This document shows positions 18,622 to 28,730 of a DNA stretch of 64,000 nt, piece by piece. The DNA comes from Desulfosporosinus sp. Sb-LF (lineage in GTDB: Bacteria; Bacillota; Desulfitobacteriia; Desulfitobacteriales; Desulfitobacteriaceae), in assembly GCF_004766055.1 (NCBI RefSeq), contig NZ_SPQR01000007.1:62001-126000 (forward strand), in the 5' to 3' direction. A program made the translations under genes and the position numbers. Under the pieces are notes generated by a model, which did not search any database, had not been told where the DNA came from, and saw nothing but the letters and a program-made list of their open reading frames with translations. Position 1 is the first letter of the stretch. Every line of letters begins with the position of its first letter.

Positions 18622-20424
18622 GTGGAACAACAACGCCTGAAGTCAAGGGCAGAAATTCCGGAGACCACGAAGTGGCAGTTGGAAGACATTTTTTCCGATA
18701 ACGATCAGTGGGAAAAAGAGTTTGCTCACACGGAGAAGCTCTTAGGGGAAGGTGAAAAATTTGAAGGGCATTTAGCAGATAGTCCTGAGACTCTTATCAC
18801 GTGCTTCGAATGGATGGATGATTTAAGTTTGAGTATTGAAGAAGTATACTCTTATGCTCGAATGCGGAGAGATGAGGATAATCGCAAGGCAAACTATCAG
18901 GCTTTGACTGAACGCGCAGGAATGCTCGCCGTTAAAGTAAGTAGCGCAGCGGCTTTCGTGGTCCCGGAATTGTTAGCGATGTCTGAAGAGAAGTTGCAGG
19001 AATTCCGCGCGTCGTCTCCCAAAATGGAACATTACAACCAAGCCTTGGAGGATATTCTACGCAAGAAAAAGCACATTCTCAGTTCAATGGAAGAAAAATT
19101 GTTAGCCCAAATGGGTGAATTGGCAGAAGCTCCAGGAGCAATCTTCTCTATGGCTAATAATGCAGACCTAAAATTCCCGAGTATTGACGATGAATTGGGC
19201 CAATCAGTAGAATTGACCAAAGGGAATTTTATCCAGTTCATGGAAAGCCCTAAGCAGAGCGTGAGAAAGGCAGCCTTTGAGACACTCTATCGTACCTATG
19301 AGAAGCAAAGGAATACGTGGGCAGCGACTTTAAATGCTAGTATTAAATCGGACGTCTTTTTTGCCAAGGCGCGGAACTATCCTTCAGCTATTGAAGCTTC
19401 CCTAGATGATGACCGTGTCCCCATTAAGGTCTATGATTCTCTAATTGATACGGTCCACGAATTTTTGCCTCAAATGCATCGATATGTTCAACTGCGTAAA
19501 AAAGCCCTGAAGCTCGATGAATTACATATGTATGATATCTACGTTCCCATTGTTCCGGAAACAACCATGACGATTACTTATGAAGAAGCAAAAAACATGG
19601 TGATTGAAGGCTTGCGGCCTCTAGGAGAAGACTATATTAAGATCCTACAGGAAGGTCTCGAGAAGAAATGGATTGATGTGTATGAAAATGAAGGAAAGAC
19701 GAGCGGAGCTTATTCTTGGGGCACGTATCGCTCACATCCGTATGTCTTATTAAACCATCAAGACACTCTGGATTCAATGTTTACCCTCGCTCACGAGATG
19801 GGTCACTCGTTACATACCTATTTTTCTAACCGTAAACAACCCCACCTCTATGCCGGCTACAAAATTTTTGTAGCAGAAGTTGCTTCAACGTTGAATGAAG
19901 CCTTGATTATGGAGCATCTCTTAGAAACTACAAAGGATCCTAAAACTTTGGCCTATTTGATTAATCATTATCTTGAACAGTTTCGTGGCACTATTTTTAG
20001 GCAAACTATGTTTGCTGAATTTGAAAAGAAGATTCACTCTGTGGTAGAAGAAGGGGGGGCTTTAACAGCTGACAATTTCTCTGAGATTTATCGTGATTTA
20101 AATGCAGTTTATTATGGACCAGATGTTATTCTCGATCCTGAGATTGCTCTAGAATGGGCACGAATACCACATTTTTATAATGCTTTTTATGTTTACAAAT
20201 ATGCTACGGGATTCTCAGCGGCAACAGCCTTTGCGCGGGCGATTTTAGATGAAGGTGAGCCAGCTGTTGCGAGGTATTTGGAATTTCTGAGTGGAGGAAG
20301 TTCAGATTATCCCATCGAATTATTGCGTAAAGCGGGCGTTGATATGGAAACTCCTGTTCCGGTACGGAATGCTCTACAAGTCTTTACAGGACTTGTAGAA
20401 CGATTGGAAACTCTCTTAACGTAA
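18622..20424 (+). CDS. pepF: Oligoendopeptidase F (M3 zinc metallopeptidase)
   Basis: Cytoplasmic zinc peptidase that degrades short peptides, 600 aa as is usual. The HExxH motif is HEMGH at 391-395, with the third ligand glutamate expected in AEVASTLNEALIMEHLL about 25 residues on. The N-terminal helical half begins RAEIPETTKWQLEDIFSD, characteristic of M3B PepF. GTG start at 18622 with AGGAGGG at 18608-18614. Monocistronic. With the two peptide-transporter loci at 50-59 kb it would serve peptide use, but it is not linked to them. Confidence 0.95.
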   Translation: MEQQRLKSRAEIPETTKWQLEDIFSDNDQWEKEFAHTEKLLGEGEKFEGHLADSPETLITCFEWMDDLSLSIEEVYSYARMRRDEDNRKANYQALTERAGMLAVKVSSAAAFVVPELLAMSEEKLQEFRASSPKMEHYNQALEDILRKKKHILSSMEEKLLAQMGELAEAPGAIFSMANNADLKFPSIDDELGQSVELTKGNFIQFMESPKQSVRKAAFETLYRTYEKQRNTWAATLNASIKSDVFFAKARNYPSAIEASLDDDRVPIKVYDSLIDTVHEFLPQMHRYVQLRKKALKLDELHMYDIYVPIVPETTMTITYEEAKNMVIEGLRPLGEDYIKILQEGLEKKWIDVYENEGKTSGAYSWGTYRSHPYVLLNHQDTLDSMFTLAHEMGHSLHTYFSNRKQPHLYAGYKIFVAEVASTLNEALIMEHLLETTKDPKTLAYLINHYLEQFRGTIFRQTMFAEFEKKIHSVVEEGGALTADNFSEIYRDLNAVYYGPDVILDPEIALEWARIPHFYNAFYVYKYATGFSAATAFARAILDEGEPAVARYLEFLSGGSSDYPIELLRKAGVDMETPVPVRNALQVFTGLVERLETLLT

Positions 20425-22251: not shown

Positions 22252-22351
22252 TTTTGAATCGTCATTGTGATGTTGTTTTTACGAGTTTGTCTTGCGAAAA
22301 ACTAAAAGTGTGGTATATTTAAGATTAATGTTAGTAGAAGGAGGATGAAAA

Positions 22352-22684
22352 ATGGTTGCTATTACTGAAATTGCTGCCCAGAAAGTTAAAGAAGTACTTA
22401 AAAATCAAAACAAAGAAAACGCTTTTCTTCGTCTCTATCTTGTAGGAGTTGGCTGAGGTGGGCCGAATTTCGGCATGACTCTGGATGAGTCAAAGACAGA
22501 TGAGGATATTCTTGATGTAGAATACGGTGTATCAATGGTAACGGACAAAAAACTTACTTCCTATTTAGAGGGAGCGACCGTTGATTTCATTGAATCCGCA
22601 CACGGCGGAGGATTTGAAATACGTACAGCGAAGAGCGCTGGTGGCGATAGCGGTTGCGGTGGAAGCTGCGGCGGTAGTTGTTAA
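22352..22684 (+). CDS. HesB/IscA-like selenoprotein (in-frame TGA = Sec35)
   Basis: 110-aa HesB/IscA-family protein interrupted by TGA at 22454-22456 (codon 35). The frame continues through it with unbroken family sequence: LRLYLVGVG-U-GGPNFGMTLDE, where homologues have GVGCGG. Sec therefore replaces the first conserved metal- or cluster-binding cysteine; the C-terminal cysteines are in a Gly-rich tail (SGCGGSCGGSC). A SECIS-like hairpin follows the TGA, with stem GACTC/GAGTC (22477-22491), loop TGGAT, some 20 bases downstream, and a smaller GCCG/CGGC hairpin before it. ATG with AAGGAGG upstream. Its role is probably Fe-S carrier or redox. A sequencing error is unlikely because the cysteine codon TGC/TGT differs from TGA at exactly the conserved site. 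Confidence 0.88.
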
Positions 22685-23186: not shown

Positions 23187-24554
23187 ATGACAATCACATT
23201 CGCACGAGAAGAGATTCAGCAAACGATCAAAATGATTCATGAAGAGAATTTGGATATAAGAACCATTACCATGGGGATTAGCCTTCTTGATTGTGGTTCC
23301 GAAGATATTAGTCGGATGGAAACGAAGATTTATGATAAAGTTACAAAGATTGCTGAACGATTAGTGACAGTTGGCGAACAAATTTCGGCGCGTTATGGGA
23401 TTCCTATTATCAATAAGCGGGTATCTGTTACGCCCATCGCGATTGCGGCCGCTCACTTAAATACAGAAGAAATGGTGCGGATTGCCAAAGTATTAGATCG
23501 TGCGGCTAGAGAAATTGGAGTTAATTTTATCGGCGGCTTTTCTGCCTTGGTTCAGAAGGGCTTTACCGCGGGGGATTTAGCGCTTATTGACGCCATCCCA
23601 CAAGCACTTAGTGAGACTGAATTTATTTGTTCCTCAGTGAATATCGGAACGACTAAAACGGGGATTAACATGGATGCAGTACTAAAAATGGGTCAAGTGA
23701 TCTTGAATTGCGCTCAACTGACTGCAGACAGAGATGGTATTGCAGCAGCAAAATTAGTCGTATTCTGCAATGCACCAGAGGATAATCCGTTCATGGCTGG
23801 TGCTTTCCACGGAGTGGGAGAACCAGAATGTGTTATAAACGTAGGAGTCAGTGGCCCAGGGGTTGTGGCTAAGGTTGTTAAAGAATACCCTGAAGCGGAT
23901 TTCAGTGAACTATCCAATTTAATTAAACAAACATCCTTTAAGATCACTCGTATGGGTGAGCTGATTGGACGAGCAACCTCGAAGGCTTTAAATGTTCCTT
24001 TCGGGATCGTAGATCTTTCTTTAGCACCCACCCCAGCAATAGGAGACAGTGTGGCAGAAATCCTTGAAAATATGGGTCTAGAACGATGTGGAACACATGG
24101 AACAACAGCCGCCTTGGCATTGCTTAATGATGCGGTTAAAAAGGGTGGTGCAATGGCTTCTTCCCATGTTGGGGGGTTAAGCGGAGCGTTTATTCCTGTC
24201 TCTGAGGATGCGGGAATGGTTAAGGCTGTGGAAGTAGGTGCTTTGACCTTAGATAAGTTGGAAGCAATGACCTGTGTCTGTTCCGTCGGGCTCGATATGA
24301 TTGCATTACCGGGAGATGTTAGTGCAGAAACGATTTCTGCAATTATCGCAGATGAAGCAGCTATCGGGATGATTAATAAAAAGACAACAGCGGTACGGGT
24401 TATTCCGGCAATCGGGAAGAAGGCGGGCGAACGGGTGGAATTTGGCGGGTTGTTAGGTGGAGCACCGATCATGGCCATACATCCTTTTTCTTCAAGTATG
24501 TTTGTGAAACGTGGAGGCCGTATTCCAGCTCCTCTCATAAGCTTATCAAACTAA
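23187..24554 (+). CDS. PFL family protein (DUF711/UPF0210)
   Basis: 455-aa cytoplasmic protein of the DUF711 family, which is distantly related to pyruvate formate-lyase by fold but lacks an activating partner here. Family hallmarks are [14 protein letters not shown] near the N-terminus, [15 protein letters not shown] (about 73-87), [12 protein letters not shown] and [23 protein letters not shown] (about 273-295). Biochemical function is unknown. ATG with GGAGGGAAA. The preceding ACT gene is its conserved partner. A 274-codon open frame on the opposite strand here is a codon-usage shadow. Confidence 0.92.
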
Positions 24555-24647: not shown

Positions 24648-24676
24648 TTTACAAATCAACGGAAATCAGGTAAAAT
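24648..24676 (+). promoter_or_regulatory. Putative sigma-A promoter of the OLE-like RNA
   Basis: TTTACA (24648-24653), 17-base spacer, TAAAAT (24671-24676). Predicted start near 24683 gives a transcript of about 625 nt ending at the terminator at 25307. Confidence 0.6.
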
Positions 24677-24682
24677 GATGGT

Positions 24683-25307
24683 TGACGTTTGATTTCTTTG
24701 GGCTATGGAACGTTATTCTAGTGCATGAGTTGGCAATCGAAGGCGGGCCTAATAATCCGCCGAGGGCATACCGATGAAGTTCCTGGTGGTGGCTTTCGAC
24801 GCCCAGTCGAGGGTTGCTGCTGGGAGTTAAGGTTGAGGGGGATCTGCAATGGCATGCGGGCGTGACCCTTTTCCGTGGAGGCCTAAGTGCGTGGCTTCTA
24901 AAGGGGCTACGGCTTAGGGTAGAACCTGCATTAGGAAGGAACTTAGTGCAGTGTAGCCTGCCTTGAGGTGGGAAAGTTGGGAAGGTTTAAAGGATCTTGA
25001 TTGTGTTGGCCGATGCATTCCAGATTGCCGGAAATGCTTTTCTGCAAAAGAGGCTAGATTGTCGAGGAGTGTGAAGGAAACTTCTAGAGCGTGTACCAAC
25101 GAGGATTGAAGTGCGGACTCAGTGGTGATCAAGTTCTGAGTGATGGTGACACCTCAGGCTGAGACTAAGGAGAAATCGCCTTGCGGGAAACCGAAGGAAC
25201 TCAGTGGGAAAACCTACTTGACCTAAGCCTCAATATTGACTCGTTGGCCTCCTAACGCCCCATAAAAAACAACACTTCTTTTAATAAGAGGTGTTGTTTT
25301 TTATGGG
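24683..25307 (+). ncRNA. ole: Probable OLE RNA (ornate large extremophilic RNA)
   Basis: A 1.25-kb stretch holds no credible protein gene, but about 620 nt from a good promoter to a strong terminator are G-rich on one strand and dense with small hairpins. Examples are GGCGG/CCGCC (near 24743-24761), TCGAC/GTCGA (near 24797-24810), GAAGGAAACTTC (25073-25084) and CGGGAAACCG (25184-25193). Size, architecture, GNRA-like loops and the anaerobic Firmicute background fit OLE RNA, a membrane-associated ribonucleoprotein component. I base the name on overall resemblance, not an alignment. Neither oapA nor isoprenoid genes, the usual neighbours, lie in this window. RNase P, tmRNA, group I and group II introns were considered and do not fit. 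Confidence 0.7.
25259..25307 (+). terminator. Terminator of the OLE-like RNA
   Basis: 22-bp arms (25259-25280 and 25286-25307, one G-T pair) with a TTAAT loop. A TTTTTT run is inside the right arm, so termination would occur within the hairpin end. Confidence 0.8.
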
Positions 25308-25804: not shown

Positions 25805-25822
25805 ATGAAAGGTGGAAATTTT

Positions 25823-26557
25823 TTGCTTATCTCCTCATCTGTACGGATGTGGCTGGGAAGCTCAACTTTGGCAGGCTTGCTTTTAGTAAGTAGCCTACCT
25901 GCGTTGGCCTTAACACAACCCGCGACTATCCTTACACCCATGAAACCGACGCTCTTAGCGTCAACTGTCGAACCAACCGGAACCTATGCTAAAGCTGTGC
26001 GAAAGCAATTGCAATGGACTGGGAGTCCTGTGATGACCAATGTCAGGACCGTTACCGCGGGAATGTCGGTATCAGTCAAACCAGTTGAAGTCGCGGCTCA
26101 ACCCACAAAAACTGTGCAAACTACAAAAACCACTAAAAACGACTCACGACCCGTTCAAGTAGCAGCAGTCGCTAAGAAACAAGTTTCTCGATCCGACGGA
26201 ACAGGGCTTGTGAATAATGCTCTGAGCTTACAGGGCGTGCCTTACGTCTTTGGAGGAACTAGCCGAAGTGGCTTTGACTGTTCGGGATATACTCAATATG
26301 TTTTTAATGGTTCTGGCACTTCCTTGCCGAGGACGGCAGGAGAACAATTCAACGTGGGTTCTTCAGTAAATCGTAATGAACTCCAAGCAGGGGATCTTGT
26401 ATTCTTTACGACTTATGCTCCAGGAGCTTCCCATGTCGGTATTTATATCGGTGGAGGACGTTTTGTTCATGCGTCTAATAGTGGCGTGCGCACTACGAGC
26501 CTTGGGGACAGCTATTATGCCGGCCGGTATCTTGGTGCTCGACGGGTTGCTCAGTAA
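25823..26557 (+). CDS. Secreted NlpC/P60 peptidoglycan endopeptidase
   Basis: 244-aa cell-wall hydrolase. A signal peptide (about 1-32, ending near LPALA) is followed by a Thr/Lys-rich linker (about 33-125) and a C-terminal NlpC/P60 domain (about 128-244). The catalytic Cys is C153 in FDCSGYTQYVF, and the His is in SHVGIYIGGGRFVHAS. It would cleave D-gamma-Glu to diamino-acid bonds in stem peptides. Start set at TTG 25823 with AAAGGTGG at 25808-25815; the ATG at 25805 lies upstream of that site. It is directly behind a c-di-AMP riboswitch, linking wall hydrolysis to c-di-AMP level. Confidence 0.9.
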   Translation: MLISSSVRMWLGSSTLAGLLLVSSLPALALTQPATILTPMKPTLLASTVEPTGTYAKAVRKQLQWTGSPVMTNVRTVTAGMSVSVKPVEVAAQPTKTVQTTKTTKNDSRPVQVAAVAKKQVSRSDGTGLVNNALSLQGVPYVFGGTSRSGFDCSGYTQYVFNGSGTSLPRTAGEQFNVGSSVNRNELQAGDLVFFTTYAPGASHVGIYIGGGRFVHASNSGVRTTSLGDSYYAGRYLGARRVAQ

Positions 26558-26817: not shown

Positions 26818-28578
26818 TTATAAGGGTGTATCCTGAAAATATTGATAGATTATTGTTGCGGCATTTTTTGGGAGCCCGGCCGCTTGGATCTCCTCGATGC
26901 TTGCGCGCTGAATGTCTTCAAGAGATGAAAAGTGACGCAGCAGGCATTGTTTGCGTTTTGGCCCGATACCGGCAATGTTGTCCAGAGCAGAAAGTGTCAT
27001 ATTTTTTGCGCGTTGTTGACGGTGAAACGTGATAGCGAAACGATGGACCTCATCTTGGATCCTTCCAAGTAAATGAAATGTGGAGTGGTTTTTGGGTAAT
27101 AGGACGGGGTTGCCAGTTTGATCTAGAAGCCCGTGGGTTTGATGACGATCATTTTTAACTATCCCTGCGACAGGAATAGCCAAGTTAAGTTCATTTAGAA
27201 CCTTTAAAGCCGCATTAATTTGTCCTTTACCCCCATCAACTAAGATTAAGTTTGGCAAAAGGCCATTTTCTGAAATCAATCGTGTATACCTGCGTAGAAC
27301 GACCTGCCCCATGGCAGCTGTATCATCGGACGTCTCCATGGGTTGGATTTTATATTTTCGGTATCCTCTGCGCTGGGGTTTACCCTCGATGAATTGAACC
27401 ATGCCAGCAACAGTGTTTGTTCCAGCCGTATTTGAGATGTCAAAAGCTTCAATTCGGTTGGGAGACGGGATATTCAATAGTTCGCCAAGTGTGGCCAACG
27501 CCAGTTGTGTTTCAGATTGTTGGTTCATTTCTAGTGTGATTTGCTCATGAAGAGTGGTCTGTGCATTGGACATCGCCATCTGAATTAGTTCCCGTTTTTT
27601 TCCTTTTTGAGGAACAGTTATGGGAAATAGGTTTGATAAAACCAGAGAGTCGATCGAAGGGAGTAAGATTTCCTGAGGCCATACCGCACGCTCAATGTAG
27701 AACTGAGCGACAAAAGAGGTGAACGCTTCTTCGGGGTCTTCATAATAGGGAAAGATAAAACTATCTCGTGCCAACAATTTACCTTGACGTAAGTAAAAAA
27801 CCTGAATGCACATTTGATCGGTGGTAAGTGCGTACCCAAGAACATCCCGATCAATAAAATCATTGAGAGTAATGTTTTGTTTTTCTCCCAGTTGTTTTAG
27901 ATCTTCAATAAGGTCCCGATATTCTTTTGCACGTTCAAAATGTAGAGCCTCAGAGGACTCTTGCATTTTACCCTCTAAAAGCGCAAGAATTCCGCTTTGA
28001 TCCCCCTTCAGAAAGGATGAAACCTCTTTGCGCATTCCCACGTAAACATCAAGGGAGACGTCATCGACGCAAGGGGCAAGGCATTGGTCTAAATGGTAAT
28101 AAAGACAAGCCCGTGAGGGGATTTGGCGACATTTTCGAAAAGGAAAAAGCCGATTGAGTAGACGAGCAGCTTCTTTGGCGGCAGTTGCATTCGGATAAGG
28201 TCCGAAGTATTTGCCGTTTCCTTTTTTTATTTTCCGTGTGACGAGAATTCGTGGGTGTTTTTCCTCTGTAATCACTAAATAGGGGTAGGTTTTATCATCT
28301 CTTAAGAGGATATTGTACTTTGGGTTATGCTTCTTGATGAGATTGCATTCCAAGACTAGAGCCTCAACTTCAGACTCTGTTATGATATATTCAAAATCGA
28401 CGATCTGACTTACTAGTCGACCGGTTTTTCCGTCGTGTGATCCAGTAAAATAGGACTTTACCCGGTTTTTTAGTATCTTAGCTTTACCGACATAGATAAT
28501 TTGTCCCTGGGTATCTTTCATCAAATACACGCCCGGTTTTCCTGGCAACAATGTCAGTTTTTGTCGAAGTAGATCCAT
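26818..28578 (-). CDS. uvrC: Excinuclease ABC subunit C
   Basis: Dual-incision nuclease subunit of nucleotide excision repair. An N-terminal GIY-YIG domain (about 12-92: PGVYLMKDTQGQIIYVGKAK) makes the 3' incision. A Cys-containing central region, the UVR helix pair for UvrB contact (about 195-230), an RNase-H-like 5'-incision domain with the DISNTAGTNTVAGMV and LILVDGGKGQ motifs, and a C-terminal helix-hairpin-helix pair (about 535-575) follow. Start set at ATG 28578 with GAGGTGGGG just upstream, giving 586 aa; a 20-residue longer frame lacks a site. No uvrA or uvrB is adjacent. Confidence 0.96.
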   Translation of the reverse strand: MDLLRQKLTLLPGKPGVYLMKDTQGQIIYVGKAKILKNRVKSYFTGSHDGKTGRLVSQIVDFEYIITESEVEALVLECNLIKKHNPKYNILLRDDKTYPYLVITEEKHPRILVTRKIKKGNGKYFGPYPNATAAKEAARLLNRLFPFRKCRQIPSRACLYYHLDQCLAPCVDDVSLDVYVGMRKEVSSFLKGDQSGILALLEGKMQESSEALHFERAKEYRDLIEDLKQLGEKQNITLNDFIDRDVLGYALTTDQMCIQVFYLRQGKLLARDSFIFPYYEDPEEAFTSFVAQFYIERAVWPQEILLPSIDSLVLSNLFPITVPQKGKKRELIQMAMSNAQTTLHEQITLEMNQQSETQLALATLGELLNIPSPNRIEAFDISNTAGTNTVAGMVQFIEGKPQRRGYRKYKIQPMETSDDTAAMGQVVLRRYTRLISENGLLPNLILVDGGKGQINAALKVLNELNLAIPVAGIVKNDRHQTHGLLDQTGNPVLLPKNHSTFHLLGRIQDEVHRFAITFHRQQRAKNMTLSALDNIAGIGPKRKQCLLRHFSSLEDIQRASIEEIQAAGLPKNAATIIYQYFQDTPL

Positions 28579-28730
28579 ATTCCCCACCTCACTTCTTATT
28601 CTAGAGTGTAGATTTGTGAGATGCAAGTTTTTATACATAACTATATTAAGACGAACGTATACATGGTTTAAGGACCTAGTTGTTAGTTATCTATAAACCA
28701 GACTATATGGGGTTAATGGGGGGTTAAGGT

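Follow-up and report, generated by a model that had tools for sequence, protein, structure and literature searches.

In Desulfosporosinus and its relatives, the gene for OLE RNA, which is a large stress RNA that associates with the membrane in Gram-positive bacteria, stands far from the operon that contains oapA. Our preferred reading, to which we assign a probability of about 0.88, is that ole was relocated in a common ancestor of two families and became a single-gene unit, and that its RNA forms a ribonucleoprotein (RNP) with OapA and OapC in trans, OapB having apparently been lost. Throughout, f1 denotes the family of the source genome, f2 a sister family in the same order and f3 another family; the OLE RNAs of f1 and f3 are referred to as moved.

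An ole gene between pepF and uvrC

We analysed a 64-kb window, that is, the whole stretch of 64,000 nucleotides, from the genome of Desulfosporosinus sp. Sb-LF (4.27 Mb, 30 contigs). A search of this window with Rfam cmscan returned three matches: OLE, a c-di-AMP riboswitch and a tRNA. The OLE match (RF01071; 24689-25271, + strand) covers the full model, positions 1-616, with 397.6 bits (E 2.6e-113) against a gathering threshold of 50, and it is the single copy in the source genome. The initial annotation had named OLE from the letters alone, with the Rfam model as the check and another known RNA family across the region as the counter-evidence to look for. The end-to-end, high-scoring match bears out this identity, and no second RNA family was matched in the region by cmscan of the whole window.

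The expected signals flank the gene. A promoter (24648-24676, +) with a -35 box TTTACA (24648-24653), a 17-nt spacer and a -10 box TAAAAT (24671-24676) places the probable transcription start near 24683, which is where the initial annotation had begun the transcript. A promoter scan on its own does not exceed the chance expectation, with 1 found against 2.2 expected; equivalent boxes lie upstream of ole in the f1 relatives at about the same distance. At the other end, an intrinsic terminator (25259-25307, +) with the anticipated 22-bp stem has a folding energy of -33 kcal/mol and a z score of -12, and hairpins likewise lie 3' of ole in relatives. GNRA-type loops, also foreseen, were found in P12.2 (GGUGAC with GUGA, 25145-25150, +) and in P13 (GGAAAC with a GAAA tetraloop, 25186-25191, +). 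The gene would be transcribed alone, from its own promoter to its own terminator.

Both neighbours were identified correctly from the letters: upstream lies a DUF711/PRK05313 gene of the PFL family (UPF0210; 23187-24554, +), and downstream an NlpC/P60 cell-wall hydrolase gene (25805-26557, +) led by a c-di-AMP riboswitch (RF00379; 25679-25819, +), a separate unit. In a wider frame, a pepF-like Peptidase M3 gene (18622-20424, +) and uvrC (26818-28638, -) bracket a site that is common to f1 and f3, with pepF upstream and uvrC and the same subsequent genes downstream (compared at loci of G007, G004 and G001 in f1, and of G050, G054 and G055 in f3). Most f1 loci have ole directly upstream of the riboswitch and hydrolase, and a connection between OLE and c-di-AMP is a published speculation (PMC11332333). 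A functional coupling of the ole site to these two elements is nevertheless very unlikely: the terminator stands between ole and them, both persist in relatives that have no ole, and in f3 different genes adjoin ole within the shared pepF-uvrC site. The riboswitch and hydrolase beside ole look incidental.

Elsewhere in the window, the reading frame of an IscA/HesB-like gene (22349-22684, +) continues across an in-frame TGA codon, 22454-22456 (VGVG-U-GGPNFGM). The gene matches the HesB-like selenoprotein models IscA_HesB_Se and HesB_rel_seleno below their cut-offs, and ordinary gene calling starts it after this TGA.

Separation of ole from the oapA operon

The OapA gene of the source genome was found on another contig than ole (G000:C1:110859-111434) with the OapA that adjoins the linked f2 ole L003 as protein query (52% identity). 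It is surrounded by xseA, xseB, ispA, a divergent-PAP2 gene (DUF212), oapA itself, dxs, tlyA, nadK, argR, recN, spoIVB and spo0A, names that were mostly assigned by inspection of the proteins. It thus still belongs to the classical ispA-DUF212-oapA-dxs operon, with 9 bases between the DUF212 and oapA reading frames and no OLE between them; in f2, ole occupies exactly this gap. The DxxxD motif, described as distinctive of OapA (PMC11332333), is invariant in our OapA alignment (D101 and D105 in A2). The source OapA matches CNNM weakly, and an AlphaFold model of it had too low a mean pLDDT (57.6) for use. A CNNM Pfam search for OapA retrieved as its sole match one MpfA-like gene, which is not OapA. 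This one MpfA-like CNNM gene lies outside the window at G000:C1:578323-578907; an anticorrelation between MpfA and OLE has been reported, and species with OLE typically carry at most one such gene (PMC11332333).

The initial annotation had described an orphan, unlinked ole away from oapA and the isoprenoid operon. The gene does stand alone at its site and is unlinked, but it is not partnerless, since oapA and an oapC (ybxF) homologue lie elsewhere in the genome, nor is its position a one-off, being common to all scored members of f1 and f3.

Linkage was quantified in 398 genomes of the phylum, nearly all at least 90% complete. OLE was present in 290 and OapA in 290, with few genomes differing between the two lists. 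Among genomes in which the places of both genes were listed, ole adjoins oapA on the same strand in all 98 outside f1 and f3 (median gap 59 bases), while the two are apart in all 37 scored within f1 and f3. When both lie on one contig in these families, the distance ranges from 61 kb to 1.04 Mb, and such cases are stronger proof of separation than different contigs in fragmented assemblies. The two genes 'almost always reside in tandem' (PMC9723947), an adjacency that is usual rather than defining and that the source genome lacks. In Desulfosporosinus and its relatives, the split of ole from oapA is therefore both old and conserved. One possible exception was considered and rejected: a second OLE in the metagenome bin G040, which has an f1-type ole of its own beside uvrC, at the usual site. 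This second copy (L004, or L233; G040:C349) is of the ordinary type, and oapA does not adjoin it on its 3.8-kb contig. It is probably a contaminant, possibly another unlinked ole.

In the RNA tree, the moved OLE RNAs of f1 and f3 form one clade with 100/100 support. Given this single clade and the shared pepF-uvrC site, a single ancient relocation is the likeliest history. Read from synteny and the tree of the RNAs, ole would have left an ispA-DUF212-ole-oapA-dxs operon in the f1/f3 common ancestor and settled between pepF and uvrC as a single-gene unit. The same clade, with its several private features, could also be expected if that ancestor had gained a divergent ole at pepF-uvrC by horizontal transfer and lost its native operon copy. 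We consider such an arrival unlikely, as no donor-like OLE was present among the compared sequences, oapA did not leave its operon, and private features can arise by divergence after a single move. We infer that ole was relocated under vertical descent in the f1/f3 ancestor.

Protein partners and remodelling of the moved RNA

A homologue of OapC/YbxF (L7Ae family) lies between rpoC and rpsL in the source genome and scores above the Pfam cut-off and below the NCBIfam equivalog cut-offs. The initial annotation had proposed a genome search for oapA and oapB; oapA was found as described above, while an OapB profile had no match in the source genome. This profile was built from five sequences, the homologues being validated against the solved OapB structure PDB 7k9b, and a strongly diverged OapB could escape it. 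It gave no credible match in f1 or f3; among the 73 genomes in the order, only G047, which belongs to f2, matched clearly. Nor is OapB found in the source genome between map and infA, its place in other members of the phylum, where one phylum homologue matches 7k9b with E 4e-11. A KOW Pfam search for OapB brought up just two KOW genes of other kinds, in positions that resemble those of rplX and nusG. About 60% of species with OLE have OapB (PMC11332333).

The structure of the moved RNA was examined in an alignment of 27 OLE RNAs of the moved clade, onto which the Rfam structure was transferred from the window's own match. Overall, 88.8% of the cells pair, a percentage biased towards this structure because one of the aligned sequences was its source; when the partners are shifted by 1-3 columns, pairing falls to 38-47%. 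Changes on both sides of a pair are the stronger evidence: 58 pairs showed them, compared with a mean of 38 after shuffling, and none of 500 shuffles reached as high. Judged by this covariation, the secondary structure of OLE is conserved and maintained under selection. The central stems are present in the window's copy, some of them short, and a minimum-free-energy fold of the whole RNA added little beyond covariation.

Several elements changed in the moved clade, as seen by comparing 28 moved OLEs with 33 others. The P13 loop is GAAA in 28 of 28 moved OLEs and in none of the 33 others, which have GCGA (24), GUGA (5), GUAA (2) or GCAA (2). As far as sequences can tell, this loop, which in other species contributes to the OapB site, has become an invariant GAAA in the moved clade. 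The P1 helix is also remodelled. In the window its 5' strand (24700-24708, +) combines a GGGC helix with UAUGG, and its 3' strand (25251-25260, +) reads CCUAAC followed by GCCC, a pairing proposed by inspection. In moved OLEs the 5' strand is mostly (U/C)A(U/G/C)GG and faces a 3' strand of the CCUA type, whereas most others have a GUGG/CCAC-type helix. Furthermore, the hairpin at about model positions 424-435 is absent from the moved OLEs, and the hairpin CUGCAUUAGGAAGGAACUUAGUGCAG (24926-24951, +), which varies in other OLEs, is near-invariant in them, a constancy that suggests a new contact.

The pair UAUGG/CCUAAG is the classical 11-nt receptor of GAAA loops. Exact copies occur in six of the 27 moved OLEs and also in G040's own copy, with variants in the rest; the window has UAUGG/CCUAAC. 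It is conceivable, though unlikely, that RNA replaced OapB here, the P13 GAAA loop docking into the receptor-like P1 element to give an OapB-independent OLE particle. We regard the P13-P1 contact as a lead and not a result, because the receptor variants do not covary cleanly. In the relocation scenario, the clade apparently lost OapB, and the OapB-binding region of the RNA was rebuilt.

Compared with OLE of Halalkalibacterium halodurans and other Bacillota, the window's RNA has the same full-length model match at about 580 nt, with most helices and conserved positions, and it co-occurs with homologues of OapA and OapC. It differs in its place outside the oapA/isoprenoid operon with its own promoter and terminator, in the lack of a recognisable OapB gene in the genome, and in its GAAA P13, rebuilt P1, one lost hairpin and a near-invariant form in place of another hairpin. 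By analogy with the known class, the RNA would meet OapC/YbxF and OapA, the latter made from the old operon, in trans, and the RNP would most likely be a membrane-bound stress-response particle as in H. halodurans. OLE variants 1 (TANB77) and 2 (RF39) of Fernando and Breaker 2024 (PMC11332333) likewise combine an altered RNA with lineages largely without OapB. In those variants, however, P7-P9 are shortened or missing and the reduced genomes also lack OapC, unlike the near full-length RNA and the 4.3-Mb genome with an OapC homologue described here; their cut-offs use another model, whereas the window's 397.6 is an Rfam score. The closest linked counterparts are those of f2 (L002, L003), which share the order, the OapA family and the DUF212 and dxs neighbours. 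There, ole lies between DUF212 and oapA with no terminator seen before oapA, the RNA is about 63% identical to the window's, the P13 loop is GUGA or GUAA, and OapB is present in G047. The OLE class is known; an unlinked, apparently OapB-free and remodelled clade appears to be new so far as our literature search reached.

Joint retention and loss of ole and oapA

Of the 29 genomes recorded under the name Desulfosporosinus, 11 carry ole together with oapA, and the other 18 lack both. Across the whole order (73 genomes), both were found in 39, OLE only in two, OapA only in two and neither in 30, and of the four assemblies with only one of the two genes, at least three are less than 90% complete. 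Relatives without ole have kept DUF711 and mostly also the c-di-AMP riboswitch and the NlpC/P60 gene, with no ole relic at the site by blastn or cmscan (E<=0.05). Relatives without oapA have kept DUF212-dxs, in some cases with a scar of the oapA 3' end (L134, L128, L132). These remnants lie just upstream of dxs, at L134:4458-4574 and in the DUF212-dxs gaps of L128 and L132, and were retained probably because the translation signals of dxs lie there. The presence/absence pattern requires two to three changes on single-gene trees, of which well-supported branches force two in the dxs tree. The oapA scars and the presence of the genes in outgroups give the direction as loss, and at least two losses in the genus are read from these trees. 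Where OapA was lost, ole was lost too although unlinked, so selection would keep the partnership and not the operon position.

These losses, together with the scores of the f1/f3 OLEs (380-439 bits), which are below those of the nearby linked f2 OLEs (520-525), might be taken to mean that the window's ole is a decaying or non-functional relic left after its exit from the operon. Such decay is extremely improbable in view of the strong covariation with hundreds of invariant positions across the moved clade, the conserved promoter and terminator, and the strict co-retention with oapA.

Much reasoning on OLE function leans on gene neighbourhood. In the moved clade the RNA left that neighbourhood and OapA stayed, and both have been kept or lost together, which separates the partnership from operon linkage. 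The apparent loss of OapB in parallel with the changed P13 and P1 is a natural test of the role of OapB, and within Desulfosporosinus, species that have the OLE complex can be compared with close relatives that lack it.
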